Position numbers and translations under genes: made by a program
Notes under the pieces: model-generated
What the model saw: the letters and a program-made list of their open reading frames with translations, nothing else
Databases searched by the model: none
Told to the model about the DNA's origin: nothing
Shown: piece after piece, positions 5,091 through 21,902 of the stretch
Layout of the letters: the number at the start of each line of letters is the position of its first letter
How positions within the stretch are numbered: the first letter of the stretch is position 1
Source: Bacteroidia bacterium
Lineage (GTDB): Bacteria > Bacteroidota > Bacteroidia > Cytophagales > JAAEPT01
DNA length: 64,000 nucleotides
Assembly: GCA_030431525.1 (NCBI GenBank)
Contig: JAUIJC010000018.1
Location: 1 to 64,000, forward strand
Direction: 5' to 3'

Positions 5091-7109
5091 TTAACTTAAT
5101 AGCTGATAAGAAACCAAAGCCAACACATATGCAATAATAGTCATCCCGACAAAGGAATACGCCGGCCATGTCCAGCTTCCTGTCTCCTTTTTGATGATCG
5201 CCAAGGTGCTCACGCACTGCATCGCAAACATGTAGAAAACAAGCAGTGACACCGAGGTGGCCAATGTGAAGACGGGATTGCCCGCCATATCCACTTGAGT
5301 AGCCAAATATTCGGAAAAGCTCAGCGTCGTTTCATTCGGATAAAGAATGGAAACCGTACTGACAAAAGCCTCACGAGCGGAGAATGACGTCAAAATGGCG
5401 ATGCTCATTTTCCAGTCATAGCCCAACGGACTCATCACCGGCTCGATCGCCTTACCGATAATTCCCACAAAGGATTCCTCAATGGCAGGCGCATTGGTCG
5501 CCACCTCAAGCTCAGCAGGGTCAGCGATAAAGCCCGATGGACCGAGATGCGCCATCAGCCAAATCACCAAGCTGGAAATGAAAATCACTCTACCAGCATC
5601 CACCAAAAAGGCTTTGGCCTTGTTGTAGGCATTGACACCTGCATCTTTCAAACTCGGCAGAGAATACCTCGGCAATTCCAACACCAAGGACTGACCCTCT
5701 TTTTTGGAAAAGGCGAATTTCAAAATAAATCCTACCAGCAAGGCCATCAGCGTTCCGCCAAGGTACAAGCCCATCATCACAAGAGCCCGCATGTCAATGA
5801 CATTCCAAAGCTTTTCAGCGGGAACCACCAAAGTAACCAACAAGGTGTAAATCGGCAGACGCGCCGAGCAAGTAATAAATGGCGTGGTAAGAATAGTAAT
5901 TAAGCGCTCCTTCTCGTTCGGAATGGTCCGCGCTGACATGATGCCTGGAATAGCGCAGGCCGTACCAGAAATCAAGCTCAGTAAGCTCCGGCCATTCATC
6001 CCGAACTTCCGCATTAACGAATCCGAGAGGTACACGGCACGAGCCATATAACCGCTTGTTTCCAACAAGGAAATCACCAAAAACAAGAGGAAAATCTGTG
6101 GGATAAAAACCAAAATACCAGCCAAGCCACCAATCAATCCTTCGGTGACCAAATTCTTGAACCAGCCGTCGGCCATCATCGCTCCGACCTCATCAGAAAC
6201 AAAACCGATACCCCCATCAATCCAATCCGAAGGATAAGATGCAATGGTGAATACAAGCTGGAAAATCAGAAATAACAACGCCAAAAACACCGTGGAGCCA
6301 ACCACGGGATGCATCAGCCAGCGGTCAAGTTTGGCTGTAAATCCACCTTCCTCCTCCTTGGGTTTGATGGCTTTGGCACAAAGGCCGTCAATTTGTTGAT
6401 AGCGCTCCATGATTTCCTCATGCTGGAGCACGTAGGTATCAAATGATGCGTTTTTTAAATCCTCGCCCAACTTCTGGGTAAGGCCCTCATCCAATGCCAA
6501 ATGCTCTCGGTGGTGAGCCACCAAAATTGCTTCGTACGGCGTGCATTCAGGCATTTTTCGTTGCACAATCTCCGTTACCAGAGCTGGTGGAATGTAGGGT
6601 GATTTCTCTGAAGCCTTTGTTTCAACGCTTCGTTTTCCCAAGTCCTCAATGGCTTTGGCAAAGGCCGAATCATCACCTTTTTCCACAACGGTAACGCCAT
6701 ATTCCTTGGCAATTACCTGGGCATCCCACAAAATGTCACGTCGGGCAACATCCGTTTTGGAGAGCACAAGAATAGTGGGAAAACCAAGGTCGATTATCTG
6801 CGAAAACAGCAGAAGGTTTTGGGCCAGATTAGTAAGGTCTGCCACATAAACCACGGCCTCTGGGTGGTATTTTGAGTCCTTGTCCAACAAGGTCCGCACG
6901 GTAACTTTCTCCTCTGCGGAATTTGGGTAAAGGCTATAAATGCCTGGCAAATCCATCAGTTGATGCTCCTCGGAGAAGATGTCCAGCACACCGCTTTTCA
7001 CTTCCACCGTTACGCCAGGATAGTTTCCCACCGTTTGGCGAAGGCCCGTCAACTCATTAAACAAGGTCGTCTTTCCCGCATTCGGGTTCCCCACTAAGGC
7101 TAACTTCAT
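5091..7109 (-). CDS. feoB: Ferrous iron transporter B
   Basis: A 672-residue FeoB that imports Fe2+ across the inner membrane. The N-terminal G domain (about residues 1-160) has GNPNAGKTT (G1), DLPG (G3, near 53) and LSKTD (G4, near 118). A helical spacer follows, then a membrane domain with about eight or nine helices from near residue 270. The first gate motif is GTACAIPGIMSARTI with the conserved Cys and Pro; the second is FSAREAFVSTVSILYP. A C-terminal pair of helices ends the protein. The length is at the short end for the family, and no FeoC-like tail is seen. Its ATG overlaps the feoA stop in ATGA, so translation is coupled. Confidence 0.97.
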   Translation of the reverse strand: MKLALVGNPNAGKTTLFNELTGLRQTVGNYPGVTVEVKSGVLDIFSEEHQLMDLPGIYSLYPNSAEEKVTVRTLLDKDSKYHPEAVVYVADLTNLAQNLLLFSQIIDLGFPTILVLSKTDVARRDILWDAQVIAKEYGVTVVEKGDDSAFAKAIEDLGKRSVETKASEKSPYIPPALVTEIVQRKMPECTPYEAILVAHHREHLALDEGLTQKLGEDLKNASFDTYVLQHEEIMERYQQIDGLCAKAIKPKEEEGGFTAKLDRWLMHPVVGSTVFLALLFLIFQLVFTIASYPSDWIDGGIGFVSDEVGAMMADGWFKNLVTEGLIGGLAGILVFIPQIFLLFLVISLLETSGYMARAVYLSDSLMRKFGMNGRSLLSLISGTACAIPGIMSARTIPNEKERLITILTTPFITCSARLPIYTLLVTLVVPAEKLWNVIDMRALVMMGLYLGGTLMALLVGFILKFAFSKKEGQSLVLELPRYSLPSLKDAGVNAYNKAKAFLVDAGRVIFISSLVIWLMAHLGPSGFIADPAELEVATNAPAIEESFVGIIGKAIEPVMSPLGYDWKMSIAILTSFSAREAFVSTVSILYPNETTLSFSEYLATQVDMAGNPVFTLATSVSLLVFYMFAMQCVSTLAIIKKETGSWTWPAYSFVGMTIIAYVLALVSYQLLS

Positions 7110-12115: not shown

Positions 12116-12198
12116 GGGTACGGAGTATTGAGTACAGAGTACCAAGCTTTCAGCCATTTTGGGCAAGCTCAGTACTCTGTACTCCGTACTCCGTACTT
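12116..12198. repeat. Heptamer inverted array, GAGTACN class, copy 2
   Basis: Units TACGGAG TATTGAG TACAGAG TACC lead into the same AAGCTTTCAGCCATT core as at 8271, then four complementary units ending CCGTACTCCGTACT. It begins right after the MBOAT stop and ends about 10 bases before the next gene's start. Confidence 0.8.
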
Positions 12199-12208
12199 CA
12201 TTACCCCT

Positions 12209-12911: not shown

Positions 12912-14837
12912 TTACTTCACTTCCTCGAAGTCTACATCTTCGGCACCACCTTCAGCGCCAGCGCTTGCTCCGGCACCTTGGCCTTGAGCCTGCTCAGCAC
13001 CTGCCTGAGGACCACCAGCTTGAGTGCCATCAGCACCTTGGTACATCTCAGAAGAAGCGGCCTGCCAAGCATTCTGAAGTGCTTCCATGGAAGCGTCAAT
13101 CTTAGCGATGTCCTGAGCCTTGTGAGCTTCTTTCAACTCGTTCAAGGCAGCCTCGATGGTTGACTTGTTGCCGTCAGAAAGCTTTTCGCCGAACTCCTTC
13201 AACTGCTTCTCAGTTTGGAAAACGAGCGAGTCAGCTTGGTTAAGTTTCTCAACTTTCTCCTTAGCCTCCTTATCCGCTTCGGCATTAGCCTCAGCTTCCT
13301 GCTTCATTTTCTCGATTTCCTCGTCGGTCAAACCAGAAGAAGCTTCGATTCGGATTTTCTGCTCTTTGCCAGTAGCCTTGTCCTTTGCGGAAACGTGGAG
13401 GATACCGTTGGCGTCGATGTCGAAAGTTACCTCAATCTGTGGCACACCACGCTGTGCTGGTGGAATGTCAGAAAGGTGGAAACGACCGATCGTTTTGTTT
13501 TGAGCAGCCATTGGACGCTCACCTTGCAAGACGTGGATCTCAACAGAAGTCTGGTTGTCAGCAGCTGTAGAGAAAGTCTCAGATTTCTTGCTTGGGATAG
13601 TTGTGTTCGACTCAATCAACTTGGTCATCACACCGCCCATAGTTTCGATACCCAAAGACAATGGCGTTACGTCCAAAAGAAGAACGTCTTTCACCTCACC
13701 AGTGAGTACACCACCTTGGATCGCAGCACCGATGGCTACAACCTCGTCAGGGTTTACACCTTTAGAAGGCTTCTTGCCGAAGAACTTCTCAACCTCCTCT
13801 TGGATACGTGGGATACGCGTAGAACCACCAACCAAGATCACTTCGTCAATGTCAGAAGTAGAAAGGCCAGCGTCCTGCATCGCTTTCTTACATGGCTCCA
13901 AAGAACGACGAATCAAATCGTCAGCCAATTGCTCGAACTGTGCACGGCTCAAGCTACGCACCAAGTGCTTTGGAATGCCATCAACTGGCATGATGTATGG
14001 CAAGTTGATTTCTGTGGAAGTACCAGCAGACAACTCGATTTTAGCTTTCTCAGCAGCTTCTTTCAAACGCTGAAGGGCCATTGGGTCCTTGCGAAGGTCA
14101 AGGCCTTCATCCTTTAGGAACTCCTCAGCCAACCAGTTGATGATCACTTGGTCGAAGTCATCACCACCCAAGTGAACGTCACCGTTAGTAGAAAGCACCT
14201 CGAATACACCGTCACCCAACTCAAGGATGGAGATATCGAAAGTACCACCACCAAGGTCATAAACGGCGATAGTTTGGTCGCTATCCTTCTTGTCAAGACC
14301 GTAAGCCAAAGCAGCTGCAGTAGGCTCGTTGATGATACGCTTCACCTCCAAACCAGCAATCTGACCAGCTTCTTTCGTAGCCTGACGCTCTGCATCGTTG
14401 AAGTAAGCAGGAACAGTGATTACTGCCTCAGAAACTGTAGTTCCCAAGTAGTCTTCTGCTGTAGACTTCATTTTCTGAAGAATCATAGCAGAAAGCTCTT
14501 GTGGAGAATACGTGCGGTCACCGATAGTTACACGTGGCGTGTCGTTCGGACCTTGCTCAACCTTGTAAGAAACAGTCGAAGCCTCAGAAGAACACTCAGA
14601 GAACTTTTTACCCATGAAACGCTTCACGGAGTTCACAGTGTTGACTGGGTTGGTGATGGCTTGACGCTTTGCAGCGTCACCTACTTTACGCTCACCTTTA
14701 CCTTCGTCCAAAAAACCAATGATAGAAGGCGTCGTGCGGCGGCCTTCGCTGTTAGGGATTACCACTGGCTCGTTACCCTCCATTACGGAGACGCAAGAGT
14801 TGGTTGTTCCCAAGTCAATTCCAATAATTTTTCCCAT
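12912..14837 (-). CDS. dnaK: Chaperone DnaK (Hsp70)
   Basis: A 641-residue Hsp70 that binds unfolded peptides in an ATP-dependent cycle with DnaJ and GrpE. The N-terminal ATPase domain opens [19 protein letters not shown] and contains [16 protein letters not shown] near residue 192 and [12 protein letters not shown] near 337. The substrate-binding domain carries [17 protein letters not shown] near 390 and the lid helices follow. The disordered Gly/Ala/Gln tail ends EDVDFEEVK, the expected terminal motif. It is not in an operon with dnaJ or grpE, and a terminator follows directly. Upstream is an unusual sigma-54-like promoter region (14899-15025). Confidence 0.98.
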
Positions 14838-14898
14838 TGTTCTAACTTATGTTCTAGCCCTTGATTGCTCAAAGGCGCAGATTCAACATGTATTGATG

Positions 14899-15025
14899 TC
14901 TGGGGGATGTCAATGGCCGTGCCAAGGGAATTTTGGCACAAAAAGCTGTCAATCTGGCGCAGGATTCAAAAATCAGTTTTCAGACTTTCCTCAAAAGGGT
15001 GACAAAAACGGCGGAGTGGCTGACA
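14899..15025 (-). promoter_or_regulatory. dnaK control region with sigma-54-like promoter
   Basis: On the minus strand TTGGCACG-GCCA-TTGAC (14925-14909) matches the sigma-54 -24/-12 pattern TGGCACG-N4-TTGC except that the final GC is GA. A start near 14899 would give a leader of about 60 bases to the ATG at 14837. The -24 half overlaps a perfect inverted repeat GTGCCAA-N7-TTGGCAC (14919-14939). Further upstream TGACA occurs twice, 21 bases apart (15000-15004 and 15021-15025), with TGTCA at 14947-14951, which could be activator sites. No CIRCE element is present. Confidence 0.55.
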
Positions 15026-15633: not shown

Positions 15634-15942
15634 TTACTCGCCGTAAACGTGAATTTTCACAGTAGCAACGATACCCAAGATAGACTTGGTTTCGTAGTCA
15701 ACATGAGAAATTTTAGTGATACCAGCATTCTTAGCAGCTGCATCGATGCTTGCATCTCCAGTACCGATAATTCCCAAGATAGACTTCGCAGAAGAAGTAC
15801 CCACCTTAGAACCTACTGTATTGTCAGTAGCGGCAATAGGGCCTTTAACGTTAGTGTAAACCAAACCAGTTACAGGAGCGATTCCAGCAGCACAGCTTGT
15901 CAAAGCCACCGCCGCAACAGCAGCAACAAAAAACTTTTTCAT
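15634..15942 (-). CDS. TRL-like small lipoprotein, paralogue A
   Basis: A 102-residue protein of the TRL-like family. The lipoprotein signal MKKFFVAAVAAVALTSC puts the acylated Cys at residue 17. The mature domain has the family's repeated small-residue pattern: VTGLVYTNVKGPIAAT, GSKVGTSSAKSILGIIGTGDAS, IDAAAKNAGITKISHVDYETKSILGI. Its function is unknown; TRL proteins are small envelope lipoproteins found in many Gram-negative bacteria. ATG 15942 is the signal-peptide start. It is a tandem paralogue of the gene at 16099 with closely similar sequence along the full length. Confidence 0.88.
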   Translation of the reverse strand: MKKFFVAAVAAVALTSCAAGIAPVTGLVYTNVKGPIAATDNTVGSKVGTSSAKSILGIIGTGDASIDAAAKNAGITKISHVDYETKSILGIVATVKIHVYGE

Positions 15943-16000
15943 TTTCTTAAAATTTACTTTAAAAACCTTCTGCAGCAAATCTAAGTAATAAATGAGCACA

Positions 16001-16098: not shown

Positions 16099-16407
16099 TC
16101 ACTCACCATACACGTGTACAGTGACTCTGGTATAAATACCAAGAATGGAATAGTTGTGATAATCAACATGGGAAATCTTAGTGATTCCAGCCTTCTTGGC
16201 TGCTGCATCGATGCTGGCATCACCATTACCCACAACACCAACGTAAGAGCGAGCCTCGGCAGTTCCAACTTTTGTTCCAACGGTATTACCCGTTGCAGTC
16301 AGAGGACCTTTGACATTTGAATAGACAAAACCTGTAACAGGACTTAATCCCATTGCACAGCTGGAGAGTGTCGCCGCGGACACCATTGCGATAAACAACT
16401 TCTTCAT
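16099..16407 (-). CDS. TRL-like small lipoprotein, paralogue B
   Basis: A 102-residue protein, the same length as paralogue A and aligned to it without gaps: lipobox LSSC with Cys at residue 17, VTGFVYSNVKGPLTAT, GTKVGTAEARSYVGVVGNGDAS, IDAAAKKAGITKISHVDYHNYSILGI, both ending VHVYGE. A local duplication is the simplest origin. Each copy has its own terminator, so they may be expressed independently. Function unknown. Confidence 0.88.
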   Translation of the reverse strand: MKKLFIAMVSAATLSSCAMGLSPVTGFVYSNVKGPLTATGNTVGTKVGTAEARSYVGVVGNGDASIDAAAKKAGITKISHVDYHNYSILGIYTRVTVHVYGE

Positions 16408-16514: not shown

Positions 16515-17282
16515 TTAGTGCTGGTGATTATGCTCGTCAGCTTTTTCTCCTCCTTCTTGATTCTCAATATCCAATAGCTCTACCTCAAAGATCAAGGTGC
16601 TGAATGGTTTGATGGAAGGACCTGCTTGCTGAGGACCATAAGCCAAATTCTGTGGGATGAAGAGCTTCCACTTGGAACCTACTGGCATCAATTGCAAAGC
16701 CTCTGTCCAACCAGGAATCACTTGACCAACGCCAAATGAAGCAGGCTGACCACGATCAACTGAACTATCGAAAGTAGTACCGTCGATCAACGTTCCATGG
16801 TAATGTACCTTTACCTTGTCTGAAGCAGTTGGTTTTTCACCATTGCCCTCCGTTAGGATTTGATACTGCAAACCACTTGGCAAGGTAACAACGCCTTCCT
16901 TCTTACCATTCTCAACAAGGAAAGTCTCGTTTTCTTGCTTGTAGCTTTCAGACTCCTGCATCGCCTTTTCCTCCAAGCGCTTACCGTAGTTCTGGAGCAC
17001 CATGGTACCAGTCATCTGGTCCATTACAATGCTTGAATCTTTCAACAAAACGCTACGCATTCCTGCAATGAACGTCTCATAGTTGATCGTCGTTGAATCC
17101 AAACCACGGCTCAGCTGCTGCATAGCCATATTCTGACCCAACGCAAAACTTGCAGAATCCCTGTCGTCAGCAAGTGTCACAGCACTTTCACTTCCAGTTT
17201 TGGAAACTCCTTTTCCTCCTTCTTGACAAGCCACCATGCCAAGACCAGCCATTAGGATGGCGCCTTTTACCAAGTATTTCAT
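16515..17282 (-). CDS. FKBP-type peptidyl-prolyl isomerase, lipoprotein (FkpA/Mip-like), copy 2
   Basis: A 255-residue envelope protein that catalyses cis-trans isomerisation of X-Pro bonds in folding periplasmic or outer-membrane proteins. A lipoprotein signal (MKYLVKGAILMAGLGMVAC) is followed by a helical dimerisation region (about residues 30-130, including DSASFALGQNMAMQ) and a C-terminal FKBP domain. Conserved pocket segments are VKVHYHGTLIDGTTFDSS, VIPGWTEALQLMPVGSKWKLFIP and YGPQQAG..IKPFSTLIFEVELLDI. A His-rich tail (DEHNHQH) ends the protein. ATG 17282 is the signal-peptide start. It is a tandem paralogue of the gene at 17363. Confidence 0.93.
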   Translation of the reverse strand: MKYLVKGAILMAGLGMVACQEGGKGVSKTGSESAVTLADDRDSASFALGQNMAMQQLSRGLDSTTINYETFIAGMRSVLLKDSSIVMDQMTGTMVLQNYGKRLEEKAMQESESYKQENETFLVENGKKEGVVTLPSGLQYQILTEGNGEKPTASDKVKVHYHGTLIDGTTFDSSVDRGQPASFGVGQVIPGWTEALQLMPVGSKWKLFIPQNLAYGPQQAGPSIKPFSTLIFEVELLDIENQEGGEKADEHNHQH

Positions 17283-17362
17283 TTCTTCCTTATTTAAGAA
17301 CTGCGAGAATTTGGACCACAATCATCTAAAAGCGTCCCAACCAAGCAGGTTTTGTTTTTTTC

Positions 17363-18073
17363 TTACTTAACAATCTCAAGCAACTCGACCTGGAAAATCA
17401 GTGTGCTATAAGGCTTAATTTTTCCAGCCTGACGCCCGCCATAACCCAATTCCTGAGGAATATACAGCTCCCATTTGGAACCAACAGGCATTAATTGAAG
17501 AGCCTCCTGCCAGCCCATAATCACCTGACCAACTCCCAAAGTAATCGGTTGACCACGTTCAACAGAGCTGTCAAACACTGTCCCGTCGATCATGGTACCA
17601 TGGTAATGAACCAAAACACGGTCTTTAGGTCCTGGCTTTTCTCCTGCACCTTCTTTTAAGACCTTATACTGCAATCCACTTGGGAGCGCGACCACTCCAG
17701 GGTTGGATTTATTCCCTTCCAAAAAGAGGCGGTTTTCCTCAACGTAAAGCTCCTGCTTCTTCCGCTCAAGCTCTTGAAGCTTTTCAGAATAGGTTTGAAG
17801 AACCAAATCCCCCTCTTCTTTATTCAACAAGGTGGAATCTCCATTCAAAACATCAGAAACCCCTTTGGCGAATGAAGCCCTACTGAATTGGACGGTATCA
17901 ATTTTTTCCAAGAAATCACGACGAGCCACCTCTGCCCCCAAGGCGTAGCTGGCTGAATCCTTTTCCGTAGTTAAAGGAGAAACTGTCTCTTGAGGCGCTG
18001 TCTGTCGGCTTTTACAAGCAAACATGCCACAAGCAATGGCAAGCATGCCTACCAAATATTTCGTTTTCAACAT
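17363..18073 (-). CDS. FKBP-type peptidyl-prolyl isomerase, lipoprotein, copy 1
   Basis: A 236-residue FKBP lipoprotein with the same plan as its neighbour: signal MLKTKYLVGMLAIACGMFAC, an N-terminal helical domain starting near KDSASYALGAEVARRD, a charged linker (ELERKKQELYVEENR) and a C-terminal isomerase domain with VLVHYHGTMIDGTVFDSS, VIMGWQEALQLMPVGSKWELYIP and IKPYSTLIFQVELLEI. The gap to copy 2 is 80 bases without an obvious terminator, so the two are probably co-transcribed. The start was moved to ATG 18073, where the signal peptide begins; the longer frame runs through a terminator. Confidence 0.93.
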   Translation of the reverse strand: MLKTKYLVGMLAIACGMFACKSRQTAPQETVSPLTTEKDSASYALGAEVARRDFLEKIDTVQFSRASFAKGVSDVLNGDSTLLNKEEGDLVLQTYSEKLQELERKKQELYVEENRLFLEGNKSNPGVVALPSGLQYKVLKEGAGEKPGPKDRVLVHYHGTMIDGTVFDSSVERGQPITLGVGQVIMGWQEALQLMPVGSKWELYIPQELGYGGRQAGKIKPYSTLIFQVELLEIVK

Positions 18074-18105
18074 AGCCTGCAAACTTGGGCTAATTCCACC
18101 CAAAA

Positions 18106-18145
18106 ACAAAAGCCGAAAGCGGATTTCTCCACTTTCGGCTTTTGT
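18106..18145 (-). terminator. Terminator of the ABC-F gene
   Basis: ACAAAAGCCGAAAG (18106-18119) and CTTTCGGCTTTTGT (18132-18145) form a 14-bp perfect stem. It overlaps the edge of a heptamer array. Confidence 0.8.
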
Positions 18146-18214
18146 GTAGTACAATGTATCAAGTACAAAGATCCTTTTGATGACTTGGTACTTAGTACGC
18201 TATACTTGGTACTC
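18144..18214. repeat. Heptamer inverted array, TATCAAG/TACTTGG class
   Basis: TGTAGTA CAATGTA TCAAGTA CAAAGAT on the left and CTTGGTA CTTAGTA CGCTATA CTTGGTA CTC on the right, around a short spacer. It lies directly downstream of the ABC-F stop (18218). Confidence 0.7.
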
Positions 18215-18217
18215 AAA

Positions 18218-20159
<1,942 letters not shown>

Positions 20160-20168
<9 letters not shown>

Positions 20169-21902
20169 CACAGCTTCTTGCCAAGCCTTCACCTCATCCT
20201 GAGATGGGTTCTGGAGGTCAAGCTTCATTTTCTTTTTCAATCCGCAAATGTCCTGATGCACTTTGGTATGCTTCGTTTCAACCAACTGCTCAAGCTTTAC
20301 ATAACCAGCTTTCTGCAAAACAGGCACCCATTCCAATGGAACACCGATACCCACATAGTCCTGATCAGAGGCAAACACCTCTTTCTTCTCAGGACGCATC
20401 TGTGGGAAGAACAATACGTCTTGGATAGAGCTAGAGTTGGTCATGATCATGGCCAAACGGTCGATACCGATACCCAAACCTGCGGTTGGCGGCATGCCAT
20501 ACTCCAAGGCACGGAGGAAGTCCTCGTCCAACACCATAGCCTCGTCGTCACCCATATCACGAAGACGCAACTGGTCTTCGAAGCGCTCGCGCTGGTCAAT
20601 CGGGTCGTTCAACTCGGAGAAGGCGTTACAGATTTCCTTACCGTTACAGATTGCCTCAAAGCGCTCCACCATTCCTTCTTTGTCGGAATGTTTCTTCGCC
20701 AATGGTGACATCTCCAATGGATAGTCTGTAATGAAAGTCGGCTGAATCAACAACGGCTCACACTTCTCACCGAAAATCTCGTCGATCAACTTGCCCTTAC
20801 CCATAGTGCCATCCACCTCAACGCCCAATTCTTTGGCCGCCTTGCGGAGAGCAGGCTCATCCATTGCAGAAATGTCCACACCTGTGAAATGCTCAATGGC
20901 CTCAAACATGGTGAAACGCTTCCATGGACGCTCGAAGTTGATTTGGTTTTCACCCACCTGAACGGTGGTAGAACCTGTCAAAGCAATGGCACATTTTTCA
21001 ACCATTTCCTCCACGAGGTTCATCATCCACTCGTAGTCACGGTAAGCAGCATACAACTCCACCTGCGTGAACTCAGGGTTGTGGAAACGAGACATTCCCT
21101 CGTTACGGAAATCCTTGGCAAACTCGAACACGCGGTCAAAACCACCAACGATCAAACGCTTGAGATAAAGCTCATTTGCGATTCGCAAATAGAGTGGCAT
21201 GTCCAAAGTATTGTGATGCGTCTTGAACGGACGTGCAGAAGCACCACCATAAATAGGCTGTAAGATTGGGGTCTCTACCTCCAAGAAAGAACGGTCGATA
21301 AGGTAATTCCTCATCGTCTGCACCATTTTGGTACGCTTACGGAAAGTGTCCTTCACATGAGGGTTCACAATCATATCCGCATAACGCTGACGATAGCGTT
21401 GCTCAGGATCCGTAAAGGCATCCCAAACTTTCACCTCACCAGTTTCCTCATCCTTCTTTTCCTTAGGCAAAGGAAGTGGCTTAAGCGACTTGGACAACAA
21501 GGTCAACTCCTTTACGTGAATGGTCGTCTCACCAACCTGTGTGGTGAACACATAACCCTTCACGCCAATGATGTCACCGATGTCAAGCAACTTCTTGAAG
21601 ACAGTGTTATACAAGGTCTTGTCCTCCCCCTCGCAAATCTCATCACGATTTACATAAATCTGGATACGCCCGTTGGCGTCCTGAATCTCAGCGAAGGAGG
21701 CCTTTCCCTGAATACGGCGGCTCATCAATCGGCCAGCCATGGAAATCTCCTGATAGTCGTTCGGACGCTTCTCAAAGTTCTTGAGGATGTCCTTCGAGTT
21801 AGTGTTTATCTCAAAGCTCTTTGACGGATACGGGTTTATTCCCATTCTCATCAGCTCCTCGCGTTCCTCGCGACGGTGGATCTCCTGTTCGCTCAAGTGC
21901 AT
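20160..21902 (-). CDS. lysS: Lysyl-tRNA synthetase, class II
   Basis: A 580-residue class II LysRS that charges tRNA-Lys. It has an N-terminal OB-fold anticodon-binding domain (about residues 60-150, [20 protein letters not shown]). The catalytic domain shows motif 2 [18 protein letters not shown] near residue 262 and motif 3 [14 protein letters not shown] near 490, followed by [10 protein letters not shown] where most LysRS end. A further tail of about 70 residues ([17 protein letters not shown]...) looks helical, possibly helix-hairpin-helix; similar tails occur in Bacteroidota homologues as I recall. The last codons and TAA lie in a heptamer repeat. Confidence 0.97.

Follow-up and report, generated by a model that had tools for sequence, protein, structure and literature searches.

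In Flavobacterium psychrophilum, which offers the closest described system, mapping of transcription start sites places a sigma-54 motif at dnaK, groESL, grpE-dnaJ, htpG, lon and clpB (PMC9723704). These SM4 promoters resemble the case described below in that dnaK, groESL, grpE-dnaJ, htpG and lon all lie behind -24/-12 promoters, and in F. psychrophilum, too, an activator gene adjoins lptE and lies near groESL (THC0290_0733-0732 and 0729-0728). However, F. psychrophilum belongs to a different class of the phylum, and the accessible part of the paper names no activator or site for the chaperone group and includes no small genomes. Known inducers in F. psychrophilum include no heat but blood agar, osmolarity, plasma and fresh water, and no report of heat induction was seen in the sections consulted. 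Additionally, a survey based on scoring matrices (PSSMs) predicts sigma-54 control of DnaK, DnaJ, GrpE, GroEL and GroES in Bacteroidota, including Cytophagia; this survey differs from the present work in using position matrices only, and a search of its text by terms turned up neither an activator nor an upstream site or a spacing (PMC12316311). Another paper finds it unusual that flavobacterial insect symbionts retain rpoN and links this, tentatively, to nitrogen (PMC3971599). Elsewhere, the same chaperone genes are the targets of HrcA/CIRCE and sigma-32 heat-shock control, from which the present case differs in that CIRCE and HrcA were not found and sigma-54 with an ATPase activator appears to stand in their place.

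The locus under study comes from a member of the Cytophagales (assembly GCA_030431525.1, contig JAUIJC010000018.1, positions 1 to 64,000); that whole stretch of 64,000 nucleotides is referred to as the window. The features that matter for the argument are as follows.

12912..14837, minus strand: dnaK, an ORF of 641 aa (Pfam HSP70, 870 bits)
14838..14898, minus strand: predicted 61-base leader, with +1 at ~14898 placed by geometry only
14909..14925, minus strand: sigma-54-type promoter, -24 box TTGGCACG, N4 GCCA and -12 box TTGAC, recognized by conservation
14919..14939, no strand: inverted repeat GTGCCAA-N7-TTGGCAC, the 3' arm being the -24 box and the 5' arm not conserved
14947..14959, minus strand: proposed activator site (UAS), CGCCAGATTGACA, i.e. 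CGCCA-GAT-TGACA, with 7 of the 8 informative bases of TGNCA-N3-TGNCA
15000..15025, no strand: two TGACA words 21 bases apart (15000-15004 and 15021-15025), arrangement not conserved

Upstream of dnaK, the window also contains two tandem, similar genes for small secreted or lipoprotein-like products (MKK..AALTSCAAGIAPVTG...; 15634-15999 and 16099-16407, minus strand), followed by two tandem genes resembling FKBP-type peptidyl-prolyl isomerases (16515-17321 and 17363-18154). Further on, a match to the Rfam small RNA family Acido-Lenti-1 (19993-20038, plus strand; 52.8 bits against a gathering score of 37) sits just downstream of a lysyl-tRNA-synthetase-like ORF (20160-21902, minus strand). Dispersed palindromic repeats of the GTACAATGTAT / AGTACTCTGTACTCCGTACT type occur between genes of this genome, among other places directly upstream of rpoN and grpE (L244, ~6130-6380, and L297), and a stretch similar to them lies at 12120-12200 of the window.

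Besides dnaK, no full-length Hsp70 gene was detected in the genome, where the other match to the HSP70 profile is a short stretch of 39 bits. A sequence-only reading of this DNA had proposed a -24/-12 match on the minus strand with one -12 base off, as well as a leader of about 60 bases, and both are borne out: TTGGCACG-N4-TTGAC is present at 14925-14909, and a +1 set at the usual distance, 12 bases past the -12 base at 14910, leaves 61 bases before the dnaK ATG at 14837. The -24 box (14925-14918) has its GG at -24 within TGGCAY, and the G of the -12 box comes ten bases after that GG, with the C of the consensus GC replaced by A. The missing C strictly weakens the standing of this promoter as a canonical sigma-54 promoter, although it would still be expected to work like one. 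Taken as a single sequence, the match does not rise above chance. With as many as 3 mismatches allowed, the sigma-54 consensus has 30 matches in the window against 36 expected from shuffles, and TGGCAY-N5-TTG occurs 32 times in the whole genome against 52 for the reversed pattern; with no enrichment, it is too unspecific to serve as a genome-wide promoter finder in this organism.

The match owes its significance to conservation across relatives only. About 150 relatives were compared. Among 127 distinct regions upstream of dnaK, taken from Cytophagales and from further Bacteroidia, TGG(C/T)A(C/T)-N5-TTG was found within 200 bases of the dnaK start in 122, against 0.4 % of dinucleotide shuffles, and most of the regions without the exact motif hold one- or two-base variants in the same place. 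A second batch of 20 further genomes, which had no part in the definition of the motif, carries it exactly in 17. The base that follows TTG is T in 61 cases, A in 54 and C in 7; since the relatives mostly have T or A there, the absent -12 C of the window is a rule of the group and not a local defect. In some lineages, including several small genomes, the full sigma-54 consensus does stand at this position (CTGGCACAGCACTTGCA/T, CTGGCATAATAGTTGCA, ATGGCATAAAATTTGCT), and the other Flavobacterium dnaK promoters in the comparison set have the same TTGGCACA-N4-TTG(A/T). Being conserved across the whole order and beyond it within Bacteroidia, the motif gives good support to the proposal that dnaK lies behind a sigma-54 promoter.

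The sigma factor itself is available, in that rpoN is intact and complete in the genome, with an RpoN box (ARRTVAKYRE) and, on alignment to E. coli sigma-54 structures, a helix (STVSRV) like that of E. coli, whose arginine presumably contacts the -12 region. Of 148 Cytophagales genomes, 143 gave an rpoN match, among them every one of 0.7-1.8 Mb. The genomes of one family, 1.1-1.6 Mb in size, have rpoN and dnaK on one strand at a distance of 2-3 kb (G008, G056, G070, G097, G111, G124 and G136; loci L200, L203, L204 and L206-L209). Counting against a strict dependence, two genomes (G092 and G122) keep the dnaK motif with rpoN not detected; both are fragmented, and the absence may be one of missing sequence. 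The five genomes without a match, mostly fragmented and including these two, were considered as natural knock-outs and permit no conclusion. As for the classical alternative, a search of 59 genomes of the order, among them the present one, detected no HrcA, and CIRCE, already reported missing by the earlier reading, does not occur in the window even with 3 mismatches allowed, so that dnaK has neither mark of the HrcA/CIRCE regulon. The sigma-54 idea for dnaK stands because the promoter is conserved, rpoN is intact, and HrcA and CIRCE were not found, and the case that sigma-54 transcribes dnaK in this organism, built from comparison of genomes, may be called strong.

Other chaperone genes of the genome share the arrangement, i.e. 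the promoter together with the upstream site described below, as expected of the Bacteroidetes sigma-54 chaperone regulon. The pair is found at htpG (UAS 8/8 at 12 bp, CTGGAATGGAACTTGA) and at groES (7/8 at 12 bp, CTGGCACAAGATGTGT), and these two and dnaK fell beyond a null of 1500 random pieces. It is weaker at lon (7/8 at 11 bp, GTGGCTTGGTTGTTGC; p about 0.01) and at grpE (7/8 at 23 bp, TTGGCTGGTGGTCTGC), the latter found only by eye, and clpB, which the earlier reading had listed with groESL, htpG and grpE, has no convincing site in this genome. In five larger relatives, the promoters of htpG and nearly all of those of grpE and groES lay beyond or near 1500 random pieces. The circuit had been described as an unusual one for heat shock, which it is beside E. 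coli or Bacillus, but sigma-54 chaperone promoters have already been reported for Bacteroidetes in two studies (PMC9723704, PMC12316311), which makes the dnaK promoter here a further member of a regulon already described. Of the findings that the earlier reading had named as telling against it, neither a motif unshared by other chaperone genes nor one unconserved ahead of dnaK in relatives was obtained.

What the comparison adds is an upstream element. The TGACA pair had been put forward as a pair of activator sites; the two words are present, but their arrangement is not conserved, and the conserved element lies nearer the promoter, at 14947-14959, where it had been overlooked. In the window it carries one mismatch, and its distance upstream of the TGG in the -24 box is 22 bp. 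A full TGNCA-N3-TGNCA within 70 nt of the -24 box is present in 80 of 122 relatives, against 0.5 % of shuffles, and its distance to the TGG is 11-13, 22-24, 33-34 or 54 bp, with two exceptions at 15. For 33 nonredundant sites the phasing gives R = 0.89, the highest value in 5000 random sets being 0.52, where the null is uniform spacing and is generous to the test. In the new batch, whose data lay outside the finding of the rule, all 15 sites fall at 12-13, 22-24 or 33 bp. When promoter and site are combined, TGTCA-N9-39-TGGCAYR-N4-TTG matches 20 times across 20 small genomes, and 17 of these matches fall at dnaK; its reversed control has 0. Counting against the reading as an activator site, a spacing of 11-24 bp is closer than that of usual enhancers.

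The best candidate for the protein that would bind there is encoded close to groESL.

G000:C43, L242:6647-7918: candidate activator of 423 aa, with an AAA+ domain (PF00158, 232 bits) and a Fis-type HTH (PF02954, 56 bits)

Sigma54_activat AAA+ and Fis-type HTH together are what is expected of a sigma-54 enhancer-binding protein. The 423-aa activator has no N-terminal sensor domain but does have an extra region between AAA+ and HTH, and its gene is followed downstream by lptE, by a gene for a TPR protein, by secG and by groES-groEL, a linkage that is conserved. In lacking an N-terminal sensor domain and in combining the AAA+ and HTH domains, it is like the PspF-type proteins, from which it differs by its linkage to lptE-secG-groESL in place of psp genes, by the extra AAA+-HTH region, and by proposed sites only 11-35 bp from the -24 box. 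Orthologues occur in 55 of 59 genomes. The genome encodes three full sigma-54 activators, the other two without a Pfam-recognised HTH. A receiver-AAA+ sigma-54 activator (L241:7235-8386) stops directly behind the AAA+ lid and has no domain for DNA binding. No complete sigma-54 activator was detected in G008, G111 and G124, and G056 gave only a diverged match; G008, G111 and G124 nevertheless keep the dnaK promoter and the upstream site. By association across genomes, and with moderate confidence, the groESL-linked activator may be paired with the UAS. Neither this assignment nor the site and its phasing were found in the openly searchable literature, although they may be known elsewhere.

The explanation that we favour, with a probability of roughly 85 %, is a sigma-54 chaperone regulon in which the dnaK promoter, the UAS and the groESL-linked activator belong together. 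In this model, sigma-54 RNA polymerase would transcribe dnaK from the -24/-12 promoter on the minus strand (14909-14925), and dnaK would belong to a regulon common to Bacteroidia, with htpG and groESL, and probably also lon and grpE-dnaJ, as its other members here. At the dnaK promoter, the holoenzyme would remain a closed complex until opened by an AAA+ enhancer-binding protein; this protein would sit on TGNCA-N3-TGNCA, one, two or three turns upstream and always on the same face of the helix, and the 423-aa activator of the lptE-secG-groES-groEL cluster would be the best candidate for that opener. As to the switch, our guess is negative feedback, with DnaK or GroEL holding the activator, a guess prompted by the lack of a sensor domain in the activator itself. 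Induction by stress or heat, like such feedback by chaperones, is suggested only weakly.

Other explanations divide over which part of this model they replace. It is unlikely, but worth weighing, that sigma-54 acts at dnaK as proposed and the UAS binds something else, be it another activator, a repressor or a bending protein. The site is close and helically phased, as with many ordinary activators or repressors, two further activators are encoded in the genome, and about a third of the relatives lack the exact site. Against this, those two activators are the ones without a Pfam-recognised HTH, and small genomes keep the UAS together with only the groESL-linked activator: all full activators of the small genomes compared are its orthologue, which is the sole full-length one detected in most of the smallest. 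Moreover, in ten genomes the only UAS is distant, at 65-134 bp, and unphased, which is allowed for an enhancer. The 0.7 Mb genome G093 (L245:4185-5231 and L195) is also instructive, in that its single activator is without the HTH end and no UAS precedes its dnaK promoter, where the -12 is full (TTTGCT); loss of both HTH and UAS is what an activator-site pair predicts, here in one case.

A more radical alternative, that TTGGCAYA-N4-TTG is the site of an unknown regulator and that dnaK is read from a nearby -33/-7 promoter of the housekeeping sigma factor, is quite improbable. It would account for the -12 C being missing in most relatives, and a loose TAcATgTTG does lie downstream in the window; yet the GG-N10-G spacing and the full consensus of some lineages are those of sigma-54, the dnaK upstream regions of the relatives showed no conserved TAnnTTTG, and sigma-54-class start sites have been mapped at the same genes in F. 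psychrophilum (PMC9723704). A search of the dnaK upstream region for a sigma-70-like promoter or a terminator found neither.

Scarcely credible is the proposal that the dyad GTGCCAA-N7-TTGGCAC over the -24 half, which is indeed present as first read (14919-14939), an exact 7+7 and the genome's only copy with fewer than 2 mismatches, is a lineage-specific operator from which a repressor blocks sigma-54 polymerase, given that its 3' arm is nothing other than the -24 box, conserved as such, that its 5' arm is absent from relatives (at least 5 of 7 bases kept at the exact place in 6 of 121, neighbouring places giving no fewer), and that it was not seen at the other chaperone promoters of the genome; being specific to this genome, it is treated as incidental.

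In most Bacteroidetes, the control of chaperones without sigma-32 or HrcA has been little studied, and the comparison offers for it a testable wiring of one sigma factor, one activator, one site and one spacing rule. On balance, we incline to the broader view that sigma-54 with a sensorless activator from the groESL cluster may be the ancestral master switch for chaperones in Bacteroidia, standing where sigma-32 or HrcA stands elsewhere, with a promoter class of its own that has TTG(A/T) at -12 and with a close, helically phased TGNCA-N3-TGNCA enhancer, and that the need for chaperone expression would explain why Bacteroidetes symbionts with tiny genomes hold on to rpoN and one activator. A link between chaperones and rpoN retention in reduced genomes was not found in the openly searchable literature. 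Because the composite pattern in small genomes picks out dnaK almost alone, chaperone expression would be a more direct reason than nitrogen for the puzzling retention of rpoN in symbionts (PMC3971599).
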